From Candidatus Methanohalarchaeum thermophilum (GTDB taxonomy: Archaea > Halobacteriota > Methanonatronarchaeia > Methanonatronarchaeales > Methanonatronarchaeaceae), in assembly GCA_001914405.1 (NCBI GenBank), contig MSDW01000001.1, forward strand, positions 372,001 through 436,000: 64,000 bases of DNA, in the 5' to 3' direction. A program made the position numbers and the translations under genes. Below the pieces are notes generated by a model that saw nothing but the letters and a program-made list of their open reading frames with translations, was not told the DNA's origin and did not search any database. This document shows positions 6,233 through 59,095 of this stretch, piece after piece; the first letter of the stretch is position 1, and each line of letters begins with the position of its first letter.

Positions 6233-6669
6233 GTGAAGTGACCTCTACTTAAATCAGGGATTGAAGGGGGCTTTCCTGCGACCTTATCCTCTTTGAAGCA
6301 GGTGAGTTTGTTTTATCACCGAACCTGTCCCATGCATTCGGTCAACAAGGGAACCTATTGCTTTGAGGGAAGAATTGGATTAGGCAACTACGCCATATAC
6401 TAACTTAACTTAACTTAACTCTTAGGGTGGTTCCTCTTATTTCTCGTTGGTAGCTCCACGCCAGCCACTAGACCTCCCTACTCCGAGAACCTTTCAGGCT
6501 TACCCAAGGGTCTTGTCTTTATAGATGGGATTGCTTTTTGTTCAAGAAGCAGACAAACCAACCAACTGCCAATTTAGTTTTAATTAGTTTAAAAACTACT
6601 TAATTATTGTAGTTGATTCATCACCTACCTAAATCAAAAGATTCAGGAAGATGTCTTCTCAATCAAAAG
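6233..6669 (-). mobile_element. Non-coding IS200/IS605-type element, family A copy A1
   Basis: About 437 bp without a credible gene. Read on the minus strand, it begins after TTTAT (plus-strand ATAAA at 6670-6674) with a left-end hairpin region and ends in GTCACTTCAC at 6233. The interior is homologous to copies A2-A7. The conserved 13-base-loop hairpin is at 6319-6341 with stem CCGAA/TTCGG, a different pair from the other copies, which is compensatory. A GGC/GCC hairpin is followed by the conserved TAATCC. See the family-A finding. Confidence 0.8.
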
Positions 6670-17333: not shown

Positions 17334-18686
17334 TCTCTTAGTTGTTGAGAAGACCTTTTCCTAATCTCCGATTAGGTAGGGGATGAATAAACCACACCCA
17401 CTTTTAGACCATAAAACCATAAATGAGTATGGGATTAGTTCACAGTCGCTCTCATACAACTGTGACGCCGACCTGGCTGAAGAGAGTAGGGAGCAACTAC
17501 AAAAGCACTTTGAGATACACAAAAGCATCTACGACAAGGTGTTACAAATTTTAAATGGTTCAGATGGTTGGATAGGGAGATATGAGGTGTATAGTAGGTT
17601 GCAGGAGTGGAAAAAGACATTGAATCCCGAGCCAGAATTTGTGCTTGAAGGCTGGTTAGCAGGGAATTGGAAGAGTGTATGATGCAGTCAAGGTCTTGAG
17701 TACAAAAAAAGGGGAGGGAGAAAAGGTTGGATAGACTGCGGTGTAAGAATTAGATTAGTAGCATTGAGTATAATCAGTTAGGGTTTAAGATAGACCAAGA
17801 AATCGAAATCATACGTCTATCAAAGGTAGAGGGGAGATGTCTGTGAACTTCCATAGGCCAATCCCTAAAGACGCTAGGGCCAAAGGCTTAGTAATGAAGG
17901 GATATGGTTGTGGTGCTGGAAGGTCCTCCTCCAGCTAGAGTTGCCAAAACCCGACAAACAATCGATTATGGAGGATAGTGTTGTAGTAGGAATGGATCTA
18001 AATGTATCTAATTTCTTAGTCGACAGCGAAGGCAGAGAAATACAGAACCTAAAGACTATGTTGGCAAGGAAGTATGAGGGAGTTGAGAAAGGGCAGAAAA
18101 AGCTATCTAGGAAGGTGGGAGGGAAGTAATGATTGGAGGAGGCAAGAAGGGAGGTTGGGGAAGAGCACATAAGAAACTGAGGGATGTTCGAAGTGACTTC
18201 TTGCATAAACTATCAAGAGCATATGTTGATAGGTATGATGTGGTAGCGGTAGGAGGACTTAGAATAGTAAAAACCTATTATAGAGTGAGATCAGTACGCT
18301 AAATAGGTCTATAGCTAATTATGTTTGGAGTGAGTTTGTTTCATTGCTTGCTTACAAAGCTTCACAAGCTGGTAAGCAAGTATGTAGAGGTAGAAACAAA
18401 AAACACCACAAAGAGTTGCTTAAATCTAGGTTGTGGTAATGAGGTGAATAAGGAGCTTTCGGATAGGGTGCATGAGGGTAGGGAACGTGGTTTGGAGATT
18501 GACCGTGACTTGAATGCAGCCACAAATATTGTGAGTAGGGGTATAGGTTTGGTAGGGCAGGGACTGTCCGAAGTCAAAGCCCTTGTACACATTAACCTCT
18601 GCTGGAACTAGTTATGTTCCAGTAAGTCGAGTGGTTGAATAGGGAAGCCCTTTACTAAATCTCTGATTTTGGTAGGGGTAGTTCGC
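17334..18686 (+). mobile_element. IS200/IS605-type element with decayed tnpB only (copy T1)
   Basis: The left end reads CTCTTAGTTGTTGAGAAG followed by the hairpin CCTAATC-TCC-GATTAGG and GGGGATGAAT. The right end contains CTGGAAC/GTTCCAG at about 18600-18622, GGGAAGCC and GGTAGGGGTAGTTCGC. The 1.35 kb size fits a TnpB-only element. The hairpin near the 3' end of tnpB is where TnpB guide RNAs (reRNA/omega RNA) are expected. No tnpA is present. Confidence 0.75.
17383..18611 (+). pseudogene. Decayed TnpB (RNA-guided nuclease family) gene
   Basis: Three separated frames preserve TnpB homology. The first 100 codons include KHFEIHKSIYDKVLQIL. A middle piece with VVVGMDLNVSNFLVD retains the first RuvC aspartate context. 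The C-terminal piece carries GCGNEVNKELSDRVH and LEIDRDLNAATNI, the zinc-ribbon and third RuvC region. Two of the four zinc-ribbon cysteines are replaced (Gly and Arg where CxxC is expected), and several frameshifts separate the pieces. It cannot encode a working protein. Confidence 0.75.
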
Positions 18687-23840: not shown

Positions 23841-24295
23841 GTGAAGTGACCCCTACCTAAATCAGAGATCTTGGAAGAGGCTTCCATGCGGACCTTATCC
23901 AAATGGAGTTTGCCGAGTATCAGGCTTCTCTCATACACCTAGTCAACATGGAACTTAACTTTAAGGAAGAACTGGATTAGGGCACAAAGCCCATATATTA
24001 GCTACACAATGGCTCCCTTATTCACTCTGGTTGCTCCACACCTACCACTACACCCTACTCCCGAAGTTTCGGGCTTACCCATCTACCTTACTACTTACCT
24101 AATACACCTATTCGATGTAGAGTCCAAGGCTTTAGCCATTACCTCAAGGCATGGGATTGCTTTTTGTTCAAAAGGCAGACAAACCAACCAACTGCTAACT
24201 CCATTGTTTGTCTTAGAAACACTTAAAATATCTGTAGTTGATTCATCACCCACCTAAATCAAAAGATTTAGGAAGGTGCCTTCTCAGTCAAAAGA
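23841..24295 (-). mobile_element. Non-coding IS200/IS605-type element, family A copy A4
   Basis: About 455 bp on the minus strand, between GTCACTTCAC (plus start 23841) and the TTTAT flank (plus-strand ATAAA at 24296-24300). It is nearly identical to A5 over its first 200 bases, so the two spread recently. The left-end hairpin is CCTAAATC/GATTTAGG. All family-A core boxes are present and there is no gene. Confidence 0.85.
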
Positions 24296-24353
24296 TAAAC
24301 TATAATTTATATTATCTAATGAAATTACTAATGATGGGGTTTAGTTTAAGAAC

Positions 24354-28298: not shown

Positions 28299-28761
28299 GT
28301 GAAGTGACCCCTACCTAAATCAGAGATCTTGGAGAGGGCTTCCATGTGGACCTTATCCAAATGGAGTTTGCCGAGCATCAGGCTTCTCTCATACACCTAG
28401 TCAACATGGAACTTAACTTTAAGGAAGAATTGGATTAGGGCACAAAGCCCATATATTAGCTACACAATGGCCCCCTTATTCCTCAAAGGCTGCTCCACAC
28501 CTACCACTAGACTCCCTACTCCAAGAACTGTTTCAGGGTTACCTATCTATCTATCTACTACTTACCTATACATCTCTCGATGTAGAGTCTGAGGCTTTAA
28601 CCAGATGCCTCAAGGGCATGGGATTGCTTTTTGTTCAAAAGGCAGACAAACCAACCAACTGCCAAGTCCATTATTTGTCTTAGAAACACTTAAAATATCT
28701 GTAGTTGATTCATCACCTACCTAAATCAAAAGATTTAGGAAGGTGCCTTCTCAGTCAAAAG
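28299..28761 (-). mobile_element. Non-coding IS200/IS605-type element, family A copy A5
   Basis: About 463 bp on the minus strand, right end GTCACTTCAC at 28299 and left end abutting TTTAT (plus-strand ATAAA at 28762-28766). The outer stem is CCATGT 28342-28347 with ACATGG 28404-28409. The GGGC/GCCC hairpin and the GGTGTGGAGCA box are present. It is closest to A4. It stands head to head with A7, 30 bases away. Confidence 0.85.
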
Positions 28762-28791
28762 ATAAAACCCCAAACCACCATTTAGCTTTAT

Positions 28792-29268
28792 AATCTTGGT
28801 GGGGTGAGAAGACCCCTTCTTACTCTTTGATTATATAGAGGATGATTCAAATCTAGCACTTAAATGGTTTTAAAAGTAGTTAAGGGTATCTGGTAGTTTT
28901 TTGGATTTGTCTGGTCTATTAAAAAGCTATTTCATGCCTTTGGGGCATTCTGGCTAAGTTAAGGGCTCTGAGACTCTATATCGAATAGGTGTATTTGTTA
29001 AGCTTGAAACCTTTGTGTGTGAAGTTCTAGTGATTTGGTGTAGGAGCTACTGGAGGAGGATAAGCAGGGCTATTCTAAGAGTTAAGTTAATATATGGGTT
29101 TTTGTATTTGTCCTGATCCAATTCTTCTTTTAGAGCAGATAGTTCTCTGTGTTGATTTAGTGCAGTGAGAGAAGGCCCGAATGAAAAAAAAAAACAGACT
29201 CCGCTCCGGATGAGGATTACATGGAAGCTTGCTTCCTAACTCTCTGAGTTAGGTAGGGGTCATTTCAC
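28792..29268 (+). mobile_element. Non-coding IS200/IS605-type element, family A copy A7 (divergent)
   Basis: About 477 bp after TTTAT (28787-28791), ending GTCATTTCAC at 29268. The right-end hairpin is a perfect CCTAACTC-TCT-GAGTTAGG. The interior aligns with family A (ATATGGG..., GATCCAATTCTTC, AGTGATTTGGTGTAGGAGC) but is more decayed than A4/A5, with an A-run near 29189. Its right end runs into the 3' end of the flavodoxin gene and supplies that gene's last codons and stop. Confidence 0.75.
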
Positions 29269-42006: not shown

Positions 42007-42867
42007 TTGGATAAGGGGAGGCATTCGGTGTATTCTTTCAGTTAGCACTTAGTTATTTGTATAGAGTATAGGTGAAAGGTGTTTGATAATCGAGGGATTA
42101 TTGATGAATTGAAGGAAAGAGTAAGGAAAATTGCTTTAGGTTATGATGTCAAAATAAAAAATCAAGAAGTGGATGAAGACTATACTCACATACTTTTTTC
42201 ATCTTCTCTGAAAACTAATATGGTGGGGTTTATCTATTCATTGGAGAAGGCCCTCTTCTTTTCTTTGATAGGTAGGGGATGAATTCGATGTTTTTTAAAA
42301 TAAAAAAACTAACATTGTGTTAATGGCAGTTGGTTGGTTTGTCTGCCTTTTGAACAAAAAGCAATCCCATCGTCTTTGAGGCATCTGGCTAAAGCCTCAG
42401 ACTCTACATCGAGAGGTGTATAGGTAAGTATTGGGGTAGATAGGTAAGCCTGAAACGGTTTTGGAGTAGGGGGGTCTAGTGGTAGGTGTGGAGCAACCGG
42501 AGGGAATAAGGGAGCCATTGTGTAGCTAATATATGGCGTAGTTGCCTAATCCAAACTTTACTCAGAGCAATAGATTCCCTGCTGACGGTGTATATGAGAC
42601 AAGCACCGTGGAAAACAAACTCCCTTCGAGGATAAGGTCACAGGGAAGCCTCTCTTCCTCACCGAACAGATGTGAGGTTAGGTAGGGGTCACTTCACAAA
42701 TGCTCTTAAAGGTGCAACTTCAAGGGCGATCTAAAATAGGTTCCTAGAGGTAAAAGAGAAACTCTTGGAAGATAAGTTTTGGTCTCCCTCTTAGTTTTCT
42801 TGCTACTGCTGGCGAGGTTACACTTGATGTTCTGAGAGAGTATGTAGATAATCGAGGTGAAAACTGA
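42007..42867 (+). pseudogene. tnpA: IS200-type tnpA, split by element A6 and with in-frame stops
   Basis: Y1 transposase. It begins LDKGRHSVYSFS, has stops before HLVICIEYR and KVFDN, then continues ELKERVRKIALGYDVKI and NQEVDEDYTHILFSS, where the HUH motif is YTH instead of HxH. The gene breaks after GF-I at 42233, where A6 starts. After A6 (42698) it resumes with NALKGATSRAI, a stop, NRFLEVKEKLLEDKFWSPS, a frameshift, and ATAGEVTLDVLREYVDNRGEN. Joining the codons across A6 gives GFINALKG, matching FINTLK in the other tnpA remnant. Confidence 0.75.
42234..42697 (+). mobile_element. Non-coding IS200/IS605-type element, family A copy A6, nested in tnpA
   Basis: Exactly 464 bp, starting after TTTAT (42229-42233) and ending TCACTTCAC at 42697. 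The precise limits follow from the rebuilt tnpA reading frame. The conserved hairpin is CGGTG 42586-42590 with CACCG 42604-42608 (13-base loop). The outer stem is CCCTG 42577-42581 with CAGGG 42641-42645. The GGC/GCC hairpin and the GGTGTGGAGCA core are present. No gene. Confidence 0.9.
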
Positions 42868-43961
42868 TGAGGGCAGAAAAGACAATAGTGTGTAGGATTT
42901 GGAAACCAACGGATAGAAAGAAGGGGTTACTAATCAAGGAGTGTTCTAATGTTCAAGGATATATTTGAGGGGAGACAAAAGACTTGTATTCAGCTACTAA
43001 ACAGGCGATGGATAGATATGTAGAAGAAGTTCAAAATGAAGATTATCCTTTGTTTCTAAGAAATGATACATTCAAGGTAGAAAAAGCTGAGAATAGTGAA
43101 GATTTTGATTACTGGGCTAAGATTCCGATTGCAGGGGTGTGGGGAGGGTATTTTAGTTCCTATCAAGCCGCATCAGGAAATAACAGAAGATATGAACATC
43201 CATGACTCTTAGATTGTTTGGGAAGAGTATGGTTTTGAACTTCACTTATCGGTTTCCTTCGAGGTATTATCTCAAACTCCTGAATCGATTCTCTCCGTGG
43301 ATTTGGGTGAAAGAGTGGTGGCTTTGGAAACCGTGTTTCCAGCCGATGACGGGAATCCGAGATTTCACGGTAGAGAGGTTTGGGGGATAAGAAGACACTA
43401 TGCTTGGCTCCGAAAAAGACTGCAAGAAAGAGGGACTCAACAAGGAAGTCAAGGAAATTTCTGATAAGGAAAAGAGAAAGGTCGAAGATGTTTTGCATAA
43501 GGTTTCGAGAGATATTGTTGATGAAGCCGAAAATAACAATTCTTTGATAGTTATCGGTGAATTGAAAGGAATTGGAAATAGAGATACTGGAAATGGTAAG
43601 ACGATGAATCGTATAGTCAATTCTATGCCTTATTGGAAGTTGACCAATATGATTGAATACAAAGCTAAAGAAAAAAGGCATCCAAGTAGTGAAAGTAAAC
43701 GAAAGAGACACTTCTAAGACCTGTCATAAGTGCGGAAGTGAAAACACTTCAAGACCGACACAAGCTAGATTTGACTGCGACACTTGTGGTCTGGAGAGCT
43801 ATAACGCTGACTTAAATGGAGCTAAAAATATTTTGCAGAGGTTCCTCGCCTATATGGTGGGGGATGGGGCTTTTGTGAACAAGCCCATAACCGAGGCATA
43901 TATGAAGAAAAAAGGAGTAAACTCAGAACAAGTCCTTGGAAGCTCCCTCCTAACAAGTTAA
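42867..43961 (+). pseudogene. tnpB: TnpB gene with one stop and several frameshifts
   Basis: RNA-guided nuclease family (IS605 OrfB). From ATG 42867: MRAEKTIVCRIW, a TGA after NVQGYI, then DLYSATKQAMDRYVEEV. In shifted frames come ESILSVDLGERVVALETVF (first RuvC Asp), NNSLIVIGELKGIG (RuvC Glu), and a zinc ribbon CHKCGSENTSRPTQ with CDTCG, followed by NADLNGAKNIL (last RuvC Asp). Catalytic residues survive in pieces but the gene is dead. Confidence 0.75.
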
Positions 43962-44213
43962 ACAAGTTAGGTGGGTGTAGTTCACAAGTCTAACAGTAAT
44001 TTCTTATCAACTAAAAAGTGAAAGAAAGAAAAAGTAAGAAAACTAAGGTAAAAGAACCTCATAAATAGAATATTGAATACAGCCAATCAGGTTTCAAAAT
44101 CAATTAGGGAGATGGGTATATACAATTAGCTAAAATAGAAGAGTTACCAGTAAACTTCCATAAATCAATTCTAGGAAATGCCAAGTTTAAGTGCTAAAAA
44201 ATGGTTTGGATTT

Positions 44214-45830: not shown

Positions 45831-48800
45831 GTGGGTTTAGAATATAGTTCAAGAGATATAAAAGTGCTTGAGGGATTGAAAGCTGTAAGAAAACGCCCGG
45901 GGATGTATATAGGTAATACCAGTGAGAGAGGCCTTCATCACTTGATCTACGAGGTTGTGGATAACAGCATTGATGAAGCGATGGCTGGTTACTGTGACGA
46001 GATCAAGGTCAAGATAAAGGAAAATAATGATGTTGTGGTCGAGGATAACGGCAGAGGTATACCAATAGATACTCATCCTGAAATAGACAAATCTGGCGTT
46101 GAAATAGTAATGACTAAATTACATGCTGGAGGTAAATTTGATAACAAGAGTTATAAGGTTTCTGGAGGACTGCATGGTGTAGGTGTTTCAGTGGTTAACG
46201 CCCTTTCCGCGCATCTAGAGGTCAATGTAAGAAGAGATGGAGGCGTATACCATCAGGAGTATGAGAAAGGGTTACCTAAGACTGAATTAAAAAAAGTAGG
46301 TGAAACGGAAGAAACCGGAACTAAAATAAGATTCAGGCCTGATCCGGAAATATTTGATGAAATAAAATTTAATTACGATAAAATTGTTACTAGGATGAGA
46401 GAATTGGCTTTTCTTAATAAAGGACTTAAAATAGTGGTTTATAACGAGAAAAATGATGAAAAAACTAATTTCTTTTATGAAGGGGGAATTAAGTCCTTTG
46501 TTAAGGATATAAACGAAACTAAAGATGTTATTAACGATGAACCAATTTATTTAACTGAAAAAATGGACGAAGTAGAGGTAGAAGTAGCTATACAATATAC
46601 AAATGGATTTAATGAAAATATTATGGCCTTCGCTAATAATATCCATACTAAGGAAGGAGGAACTCACTTAAGTGGATTTAAATCAGCTTTAACAAGAGTA
46701 ATTAACAAATACGCTCATGATCAGGGTCTGTTGGACGAGGAAACCAAGTTTTCAGGTGGTGATGTTAGAGAAGGGCTAACTGCTGTAGTTAGCGTGAAGC
46801 TAAAGGATCCTCAATTTGAGGGTCAAACAAAAACTAAATTAGGTAACACCGAGGTTAGGGGAATAGTTAGATCTATAGTTAATTCGTATCTGAGAAATTA
46901 TTTGCTTGAAAATCCAGCAGTATCTAAGTCAATAGTACAGAAGTCTAAACAGGCTATGAGAGCTAGAAAGGCAGCAAAAGAAGCTAAAGAACTAACAAGG
47001 AGAAAGTCGGCTCTAGAAACAACTACCCTTCCTGGAAAGCTTTCAGACTGCACAACAAAGGATCCAGAAAAAGGAGAATTATTTATAGTTGAAGGTGATT
47101 CGGCAGGAGGATCGGCTAAACAGGCGAGAGATCGTGAATTCCAAGCTATTCTACCCCTGAAAGGGAAAATACTGAATGTAGAAAAAGCAAGATTAGATAG
47201 AATACTGGATAATAAAGAGATAAAAAGCTTGATTAAAGCTATAGGCACTGGAATAGATGATGAATTTTCATTAGAAAAAAGAAGATACGGTAAGATTATT
47301 ATAATGAGCGTTGATGGGGCAGAAAAAACTCTTGTAAAAGAGCCAAGAGGAAGAATACGATTCGTTAAAATAGGTAACTTTATAGACAAAGCTCTCAAAG
47401 AACCAAAAAAATACAGAGGATATGAGGTATTGTGCTTCAGTAAAAAAACCAAGGAAACAACCTTTAAACCAATCAAGAGCATCATAAGACACGAGCTAAG
47501 CGAAAACCTATATGAGATACAGACACAAAAAGGAAGAAAGATAAAAGTTACCTCTTCTCATAGCGTCTTCAGTTACGAAGACGAAGAAATAAAACTAAAA
47601 AAAGGAGAAGATGTAGAACCTGGTGATAAAATAGTAGCTCCTAAAAAAATCCCACTAATAGATACAGGAATACAAAAAATAGATGTCAAAGAAATTTTAA
47701 AAGAAGATAAAAAAACAAATGGCAATAAATCAAGTATCAAAGAACAAATAAACCAAAAATCAGTTGATAAGAATTCAACAAGCCAATTTATACAAGAAAA
47801 AGAACATAACCTGGTGGAAACTCAAAAGAATAGCCTTAACGTTAGTACTACCTGTAAAATTAAAATCAGTGATTTAACTGAAAATTCGGGATTGAATTTA
47901 AAAGATAAAGATTTTTATCAAGGGGATTACTGTGCATGTGGAAAAACCACTGAAAAACAAAAAATAGAGAGCAAAAAACCATTTGTTAAAGAGACAATAA
48001 GAACTAGAAAATCTTCTGACTCTGAAATGGACTCAGATAGGGAAGATAGAGACAATATTGATCTAAGAAATGTTAAAGATAAAAAAATAAAACAAATTGA
48101 TTCAAATATTTTAAAAGGAGAAATAAACCGATATTTGAAGCTTGATAGAGAATTAATGAAATTAATGGGTTTTTTGACGTCAAATGCTTTTCTCTTATCA
48201 AAAAACACTCTGGACATATTCTATGAAAACGAAGAATTACTAGAGCAACAAAAAAATAGAATATTAGATAAATTCTGTCTTAAACCAAGAGAATATGAAA
48301 TTATAAATAATAAACAACTAAAAATAAAAAACAAATATTTATCGAATCTCATAGAGAAAATACTAGGCTTAAAACAATCTAAAACGTCAAGGAATGTTCC
48401 AGACCTAATCTTCAATGTATCAAAGAAAAGAAGGCTTTCATTCCTCAGAGGTTATTTAAAAGCAAACTCGGAAATAAAGGAAAACAAATTAAAAATTAAA
48501 TTCTTCACCAAAAGTCTGGCAAACGGATTTATGTACTTTTTGTCTACATTAGGAGTTACATCTAATCTTTCAAAGATTTCAGAACCGTCTAAAAAAGGTT
48601 TAGAATTAAATAATACAACATTTGAGCCTCAAAATAAATATAAAATCGAAATAAAAAATCCGAAAGACATAAATAAATTAAAATCTTCATGGCAAGAATT
48701 AAAGGGACATAGAAAATTAGAGGACAAATTAGAAACCTTTAAGGCTAAGAATTTATCCAATTCTGGAAAGGATAAAGAAATACAAGGCGATCTGATTACC

Positions 48801-49325
48801 TTAGAAGTAGAATCGATCAAGCAAGTTGAACCTACGAATGGCTATGTATACGATTTTTCAGTTAGAGAAGACGAGAACTTTGTTGCAGGGGCAGGAGGAA
48901 TCTGCGCTCATAACACTGACGCTGATGTAGATGGAGCCCATATATCAACGCTTCTTCTAACCTTCTTTTATAGATACATGAAACCTCTAATAGAAAATGA
49001 AATGATCTACTTGGCTAGACCCCCTCTTTTCAAAGTAACCAAGGGAAGAAAATCCAAGTATGTTTATTCGGAAGAAGAAAAGAGAAAATTACTTGACAAG
49101 TGGGATGGAGGAAGTGTCCAGAGGTACAAGGGCTTGGGGGAGATGTCAACAAAGGAGTTATGGGAGACCACTATGAATCCTGAAAACAGGATCTTGCTAA
49201 AGGTAAAAAATATGGACGAAATAGGAGCTAACGAACTATTTTCTACATTAATGGGTGAGAAGGTAGAGCCTAGGAGAGAGTTTATTATGGAAAATGCAAC
49301 GAATGTTAGCAATTTAGATATCTAG
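45831..49325 (+). CDS. gyrB: DNA gyrase subunit B with intein
   Basis: ATPase subunit of gyrase, which with GyrA introduces negative supercoils. The precursor is 1164 aa from GTG 45831, with GAGGGGG just upstream. The GHKL ATPase domain covers residues 1-220 ([34 protein letters not shown]), then the transducer and TOPRIM domain beginning with [12 protein letters not shown]. Ser493 to Asn1028 is an intein inside TOPRIM, directly before [10 protein letters not shown]. After splicing 628 aa remain, normal for GyrB. First gene of the four-gene topoisomerase operon. Confidence 0.95.
47307..48914 (+). other. GyrB intein (536 aa)
   Basis: Self-splicing protein insert. It starts with Ser ([10 protein letters not shown]) after KIIIM and ends ICAHN before Thr of TDADVDGAH. 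Splicing block B is VTSSHSVF near residue 573. Blocks F and G are [19 protein letters not shown] and CAHN. The DOD endonuclease region holds [11 protein letters not shown] and [13 protein letters not shown], in which the acidic residues expected in LAGLIDADG are replaced, so homing activity is probably lost. A hydrophilic stretch of about 140 residues precedes the endonuclease region. Confidence 0.9.
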
Positions 49326-57746: not shown

Positions 57747-59095
57747 CTAGCTGGTTGAGAAGACATTTTTCTAGATCTGTGGTTTGGGTGGGTGATGAAT
57801 CGGTTATAGTTATTTGAGGTATAAGTATATGAATGGGTTTGTGGTGTCTTTGCAATCATTCTTATATGAATAAGCTGCTAATTTAACAGAAGGGAACAGA
57901 GAAGGGTTAAAGAAGCACTTTAAGGTATATAAAGGCATTTACAATAAGGTACTGGAAATACTAAATAATTTAGGTGAATTGATGAAGAAATATGAGATGT
58001 ATGATGGGTTACCGGAGTGGAGGAAGATATCGAATTCTGAGTTTTAAAATGTGTATTCAAGGGCTGCTCAGCAGATTGTTGGGAGGATATATGGCGCGAT
58101 TAAAGCTTTAAATACAAAAAAGGGGGAGGGAGAGGAGGTTGGAAAGTTGAGGTACATGAATTTGATTAATAGCATTGAAGATCAATCAGTTGGGCTGTAA
58201 AATAGGTTAAGAAAGAGGAATTATGTGTCTATTGGGGGTAGGGGGGATTACCTGTGATTTTTCGTAGGCTAATTTCAGAGGATTTTGAGGTTAAAGGTGT
58301 GGTAAATAAGGGAATGTAGTTGTGGTGGGTGGGGGGTTATGCTCTGACTGGAAGTTGGGAAACTTGATAAAGAATCAGTTACGGAAGATAGTGACATAAT
58401 TAGGGATAGATCTAAATGTATCTAATTTCTTGGCTGATGGTGAGGGTAGAGGGGTATAGGATTTTGAAATTGTGTTGGAAGGGAAATTTGGGGGGTTGGG
58501 AAAGAGTAGAGGAAATTATTTGGAAAGGAGGGGGGTGCAGTAATTGGAAGAAGCAAAAGAGGGGGTTGGCGAGAGCTTATAAGAAACTGGGGGATGCATG
58601 AAGTGATTTTTTGCATGAACTGTTAAGAGTATATGTTGATAGGTATGGTGTGGTAGCGGTGGGAGGATTTGGATGGTAAGAACTTATTGGAGGGGGGAGT
58701 AGTGTCTTAGGTAGGTGTATAGTTGATTATGTTTGGGGTGAGTTTGTTTCTATGGTTGTTTATAAAGCTTTGTGAGCTGGTGGGCAAGTATGTAGAGGTA
58801 GAGGCAAGAGACACTGCAAAGAGTTGCTCGAATTTAAATTGTGGTAATAAGGTGGATAAAGAACTATCAGATAGAACTCGCAAACGTAAGGAATGTGGTT
58901 TAGAAATTGACCGAGGTTTGAATGCATCTATAAATATCGTAAACAAGGCTATTAACTTGGTTGGGCAGGGACTGTTCGAAGTTAAAGCCCTCGGACACAT
59001 CGACGTCTGCTGGAACTTCGGTTCCAGTAAGTCATGTGGTTGAACAGGGAAGCTCCTTCCTAACAAGAGAAACAAGTTAGGTAGGGGTAGTTCAC
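57747..59095 (+). mobile_element. IS200/IS605-type element with decayed tnpB only (copy T2)
   Basis: Follows TTTAT at 57742-57746 with CTAGCTGGTTGAGAAG, ends GTAGTTCAC at 59095. It is the same subfamily as T1 (17334-18686): the 3' hairpin CTGGAAC/GTTCCAG at about 59010 with a shorter loop, and a right end with GGTTGAACAGGGAAGC. About 1.35 kb. Confidence 0.75.
57800..59045 (+). pseudogene. Decayed TnpB gene of copy T2
   Basis: Homologous to the T1 pseudogene through fragments such as KHFKVYKGIYNKVLEIL at about 57920-57970 and LNCGNKVDKELSDRTRKRKECGL with EIDRGLNASINIV near 58840-58945. Many stops and frameshifts; it is more decayed than T1 in the middle. Short open pieces, for example at 58416-58601, are fragments and not genes. 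Confidence 0.65.

Follow-up and report, generated by a model that had tools for sequence, protein, structure and literature searches.

A protein-less IS605-type element with an ωRNA-like body lies within a tnpA remnant of Candidatus Methanohalarchaeum thermophilum

This study analyzed a 64,000-nucleotide stretch of the Candidatus Methanohalarchaeum thermophilum genome (contig MSDW01000001.1, positions 372,001 to 436,000; hereafter the window). The results revealed that a 464-bp element devoid of protein-coding genes, termed A6, lies within the tnpA remnant of another IS605-type element and that its body is homologous to the sequence at the 3' ends of tnpB genes in the same genome. We consider it likely that A6 is a non-autonomous palindrome-associated transposase-free element (PATE) that was moved in trans and that is retained through an ωRNA-like RNA and a TnpB provided in trans. 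The genome comprises 2.14 Mb in 4 contigs, and the G+C content of the window is 35%. The presence of the methyl-coenzyme M reductase gene mcrA suggests that the host is probably a methanogen.

Insertion site and limits of A6

A6 spans positions 42234-42697 of the window (+ strand) and is flanked by TTTAT on the left (42229-42233, +) and by AAATGCT on the right (from 42698). The initial annotation had claimed that deleting A6 restores tnpA codons, and excision in silico bore this out: TTTAT was joined to AAATGCT and the TnpA frame returned (KTNMVGFINALKGATSRAI). The codons at the junction, marked with a slash, read GTG GGG TTT AT/A AAT GCT CTT AAA GGT, and the joined flanks translate in a single frame as VFDNRG...DEDYTHILFSSSLKTNMVGFINALKGATSRAI, a stop and NRF. 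The joined DNA aligned in one piece with L040, a further tnpA of this genome (276 nt, 67%); no one-piece alignment with this gene was obtained for the filled DNA, in which A6 was left in place. The Y1_Tnp (PF01797) match is likewise split at A6, with profile positions 1-73 in the 5' part of the remnant (42025-42233, +) and positions 68-104 in the 3' part (42698-42803, +). Because neither end can be slid by a single base (C at 42234 versus A at 42698; T at 42233 versus C at 42697), the limits are unique, and the earlier placement of the ends to the base, with TTTAT kept on the left, stands.

The initial annotation had proposed a comparison with uninterrupted tnpA of related genomes; in the same genome, the tnpA homologues L034, L040, and L041 are continuous across the insertion point. 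The intact TnpA L034 reads ADLTKFINALKTGTSKAI / FINALKTGTSKAI / DHTHIIFSTKPTADLTKFINALKTGTSKAIRHRF across the homologous point, and L041 reads FINGLKTGTSKSI (DNA AAATTTAT/TAATGGA), with TTTAT at the homologous position. A second tnpA remnant in the window reads FINTLKRG (TTNLTKFINTLKRG) in the same region, and its translation confirmed the reading given previously. TTTAT lies within the F-I codons of the interrupted gene and is coding in homologous tnpA. The interrupted gene is itself decayed; its HUH motif, in the 5' part, is DYTH, in which the first His is replaced by Tyr, and it contains several stops. Since it is a pseudogene, removing A6 restores a stretch of reading frame and no working gene. 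The remainder of the IS that bears this tnpA, a degenerate tnpB and a right end (...GTAGTTCAC), occupies 42945-43993 (+), and its ORF at 43653-43961 matches PF07282.

It is scarcely credible that the 464 bp were present ancestrally or arose as an artefact of recombination and not through insertion of a transposon. This reading is already contradicted by the tnpA homologues that are continuous across the point and by the many dispersed copies that have the same ends and unrelated flanks, and no support for it was found.

Family A and its relatives in the genome

At least 10 full-length copies of family A (464-473 bp, mutually 86-90% identical) and many related ones were identified in the genome; copy numbers from the genome searches are lower bounds. 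At least 44 copies in the host genome share the A6 core, and a core profile search of the fetched loci returned at least 49 distinct copies in which the core is essentially complete, 5 of them in a related genome (G001). Homologous elements were present in 1 of 59 relatives, a member of the same family but of another genus, and these copies (L127-L131) have the same architecture as family A. No match for family A was found in viral contigs, searched with a single exact pattern, or in plasmids, searched with blastn. No empty sites were found for the other full copies, whose flanks, once joined, gave no convincing interrupted gene.

TTTAT directly precedes all A-type left ends in the genome (15/15; background 0.0038 per position), which is more often than chance would give. 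It also precedes 16 of the 21 left ends of other subfamilies (for example, TTTAT/CTAAATAGTTGAGAAG, TTTAT/CTTTTGACTGAGAAGG, and TTTAT/CTTAAATGTTGAGAAG), and the remainder follow GTTAT, ATTAT, TCTAT or TATAT. Right ends are mostly GGGGTCACTTCAC, and the copies end in TTCAC, in agreement with the TCAC terminus first read for A6. The claim that no target duplication is made held at A6, and in 10 of 11 full copies any direct repeats at the ends do not exceed 2 bp; the sole exception, L007, has TTTAT on both sides, which chance can explain. The left end of A6 (CTATTCATTGGAGAAGGCCCTCTTCT...GATGAATTCGATG; 42234-42290, +) contains putative imperfect hairpins and is conserved in 15 copies, and its single-sequence DNA fold is weak. 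The right end (42643-42697, +), recognized from the hairpin among 45 copies and from termini in the window, comprises a GGAAGC foot, the right-end hairpin and the terminal TCACTTCAC. The arms of the left-end hairpin are visible in A6, and the energies of the A6 end folds alone are no better than those of shuffles.

No ORF within 42234-42697 exceeds 69 aa, and A6 contains no transposase gene; having no encoded protein, it is classed as a PATE. The retained TTTAT, the lack of duplication and of terminal inverted repeats, the putative hairpins at the ends, and the left end that A6 has in common with the tnpB-bearing element L148 together constitute an IS200/IS605 (Y1 HUH) anatomy. These signs support the HUH reading of the initial annotation as to the kind of element; the act of transposition is inferred. 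The assignment as a PATE and the putative ωRNA-homologous nature of its body both go beyond that annotation.

The genome is heavily loaded with IS605-type elements, with 61 OrfB_IS605 (tnpB) versus 24 Y1_Tnp matches, many of them decayed. A6 shares its ends with the protein-coding IS605-type element L148 (C1:937960-939436), in which TTTAT is followed by the same A-type left end, stops interrupt the tnpB, and the right end, GTAGGGGTAGTTCAC, is related. The layout in L148 and L070 is TTTAT/CTATTCATCGG ... tnpB remnant ... GTAGTTCAC. The TnpB of L053 (C2:143822-145183) is intact, with 453 aa and the Pfam domains OrfB_IS605 and Cas12f1-like_TNB. TTTGAC was ruled out as the L053 target, as the left-end comparison gives CTTAT/CTATTTGACTGAG. 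The intact TnpA of L034 is homologous to IS608 TnpA (PDB 2a6m, E 7e-16), and the left end of its element follows TTTAAC. The genome yielded neither a TnpA gene whose element has an A-type (TTTAT) left end nor an intact TnpB with a scaffold identical to that of family A. In IS608, target recognition relies on a guide sequence carried by the end of the element itself (PMC7290912). One TnpA could consequently serve ends with different targets, and by analogy L034 may do so here.

Several other elements were observed. Super-family copies lie in the window at 23841-24299 (-), 28299-28766 (-) and 6233-6669 (-), with a right end at 29255-29268 (+); those at 23841 and 28299 are 96-97% alike and follow TTTAT with the left end CTTTTGACTGAG. 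L098 (C1:868084-868147) is a 64-bp minimal element after TTTAT, in which a left end is fused to a right end ending in TTACTTCAC. L149 (C1, from approximately 1076870 downwards, - strand) has an A-type left end after TTTAT and an unrelated, gene-less and apparently structured interior of approximately 430 bp, and is perhaps a second kind of protein-less element. A repeat pair at 17987-18466 and 58401-58874 (D3, D4, D6; 71-81% identical) looks like remnants of another repeated element. The window also holds, at 45831-49325, an archaeal DNA gyrase B with an intein (Intein_splicing, residues 509-1028), which adjoins gyrA.

Homology and structure of the ωRNA-like region

The ωRNA-like region of A6 (GGCAGTTGGTTGG... 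to ...CTTCAC; 42325-42697, +), supported by the A1 alignment of 45 copies and by covariation, is read in the sense from the left to the right end. The family-A core is homologous to the sequence that overlaps and follows the tnpB 3' end in L053, L056, L061, L068, L070, L075, L079, and others. In L053 and several tnpB pseudogenes, the homology extends from GGGTAAGCCYGAAAC through GTGTGGA to GGAGAATAAG. The IS200/IS605 ωRNA (reRNA) is located at the tnpB 3' end and the right end of the element, as in ISDra2 (PMC8612924, PMC10097598); the tnpB-linked core copies have this location, and A6 itself carries no tnpB. Family A contains an additional 5' domain and an interior domain that are absent from the tnpB-linked copies. 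An Rfam search of the window and the tnpB-linked loci returned tRNA only, with no match to HEARO, a self-splicing intron or an ωRNA family.

A pseudoknot links the terminal CUUCAC to GUGGAG, a hexamer located in the core hairpin loop (GTGGAG; 42488-42493, +), with 98% of cells paired in A1. The tnpB-linked loci share the architecture, with terminal GUUCAC accompanied by GUGGAC or GUGAAC, terminal GUUGAC accompanied by GUCAAC, and the partner hexamer approximately 110-137 nt upstream of the terminal one. Because the hexamer pairs differ in step between tnpB-linked lineages, both sides of the pseudoknot change together. The TnpB elements L069, L071, and L078 have right ends in GTTGAC instead of GTTCAC and the matching GTCAAC upstream, which represents a natural compensatory change of the putative ωRNA pseudoknot. 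The L053 pseudoknot contains one mismatch (GUAGAC), and no six-pair partner was found in L051, L052, L053, L058, L072, and L079. The ISDra2 ωRNA forms a pseudoknot of the same kind, between -6..-2 and -102..-106 (PMC10097598).

The domains that tnpB-linked copies lack, together with the failure to find an intact TnpB with an identical scaffold, would fit an antagonist RNA, either a decoy sequestering TnpB or a regulator of transposase mRNA, in place of a cutting guide. We regard this explanation as quite improbable; family A has kept the pseudoknot next to the guide and has kept it exactly in place ahead of the flank, features for which a decoy has no obvious need. A guide-bearing RNA is the reading that we prefer.

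Compensatory change is strong in the interior helices of family A. The arms of an interior hairpin are GGTG/CACC (A1), with CAAG/CTTG or CGAA/TTCG in other copies, and the right-end hairpin is kept among the 45 copies with unrelated stems (CCCCTTCC/GGAAGGGG, CCCCACAGC/GCTGTGGGG, and CACTCCC/GGGAGTG). In the named structure, both sides had changed in 65 cells versus 23.4 (sd 3.5) in shuffles, a comparison in which related sequences can exceed shuffles and subfamily relatedness can account for part of the excess. Paired cells amounted to 92.5%, versus 37-54% with slid partners. Both the controls with slid partners and the concerted change seen from lineage to lineage speak against kinship as the whole explanation of the covariation.

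These data bear on a simpler explanation, namely that A6 is a PATE whose interior has no RNA function, being passively left over from the deletion of a tnpB element and conserved solely owing to the youth of the copies. PATEs arising through core deletion are described for Haloquadratum in the accessible part of PMC3119063, the full copies are 86-90% identical, and the 64-bp L098 persists with no interior, which makes an interior unnecessary for persistence. However, the interior helices stay paired through both-side changes well above the shuffled and slid controls, the right-end hairpin and the pseudoknot persist in copies of different sequence, and the copies of the other genus have the same architecture. 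We therefore consider a passive interior rather unlikely, and favor the proposal that the interior owes its retention to the ωRNA-like RNA it encodes.

Proposed retention of A6 and comparison with known elements

In the proposed mechanism, A6 would have entered the tnpA of the other IS605-type element on the 3' side of TTTAT, most likely by a Y1 HUH TnpA acting in trans that cut and rejoined single-stranded DNA after TTTAT on the left and after TTCAC on the right. The RNA, if expressed, would run from the left to the right end, and its 3' terminus CUUCAC would fold onto the hairpin loop in the pseudoknot. Since this terminus lies at the right end, the flank beyond it (AAATGCTCTTAAAGG...) would be the guide. 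A TnpB binding in trans, for which L053 (after CTTAT, with a homologous RNA core) is a candidate, would recognize TTTAT and the right flank and would cut the rebuilt empty site TTTAT-AAATGCTC (TTTAT-AAATGCTCTTAAAGGTGCAA), thereby favoring retention of the element, in line with the TnpB model of PMC8612924. TTTAT is thus predicted to be both the TnpA cleavage site and the TnpB TAM. Against this mechanism stand the missing TnpA with a TTTAT left end, the broken TnpB of L148, which is the one A-type tnpB element, the mismatched pseudoknot of L053, the end folds of A6 that alone do no better than shuffles, and the lack of an Rfam match.

More tentatively, family A as a whole may be a high-copy protein-less family that relies on TnpB in trans and has evolved its own ωRNA, enlarged by the additional domains at the 5' end and in the interior; we consider this plausible but short of probable. 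Under this proposal, a new guide targeting the corresponding empty site would arise with every insertion, so that a gene-less element would hold its locus by means of a nuclease whose gene lies elsewhere. Reconstruction of the empty site to the base fixes the target, the ends and the predicted guide of A6 at once, and each copy's RNA is predicted to guide cleavage of TTTAT together with the right flank of that copy. If this is true, guide-RNA-driven retention reaches elements without any protein, and a single TnpB could serve dozens of insertions. Family A is also a natural set of approximately 45 covarying RNA variants for structure work.

Similar to A6, IS608 and ISDra2 insert 3' of a 4-5 nt target (TTAC and TTGAT) and make no duplication, and they have hairpin ends, which in A6 are putative; in contrast to them, A6 has no tnpA or tnpB, its target is TTTAT and its terminus is TTCAC. 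The RNA region of A6 is approximately 370 nt, compared with 116 nt for the ISDra2 scaffold. The PATEs of Haloquadratum walsbyi, as presented in the accessible part of PMC3119063, resemble A6 in being transposase-free, in lacking terminal inverted repeats, in having near-terminal IS605-related palindromes, which in A6 are putative, in having a conserved terminal oligonucleotide that is part of the target, and in inserting into other mobile elements. That part of the source describes no ωRNA-like covarying interior, whereas family A keeps one in at least 44 copies. A PATE-like element of Halanaerobium hydrogeniformans consists of a left-end hairpin, the last 58 nt of tnpB and the whole right end; as with A6, it has no complete gene, but it is a single copy, and the available text of PMC7290912 does not discuss its RNA. 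The haloarchaeal sotRNA/ωRNA (RF02656 and RF02657, as cited in the accessible part of PMC12558985) is likewise an archaeal RNA overlapping the IS200/IS605 tnpB 3' end, and neither Rfam family matched family A or its tnpB-linked relatives. No PATE family that combines high copy number with a conserved ωRNA was reported in the searched literature, whose reach excluded important TnpB papers available by subscription. PATEs are already known; as far as that literature shows, the combination present in family A, high copy number and a conserved ωRNA-like RNA, is new.
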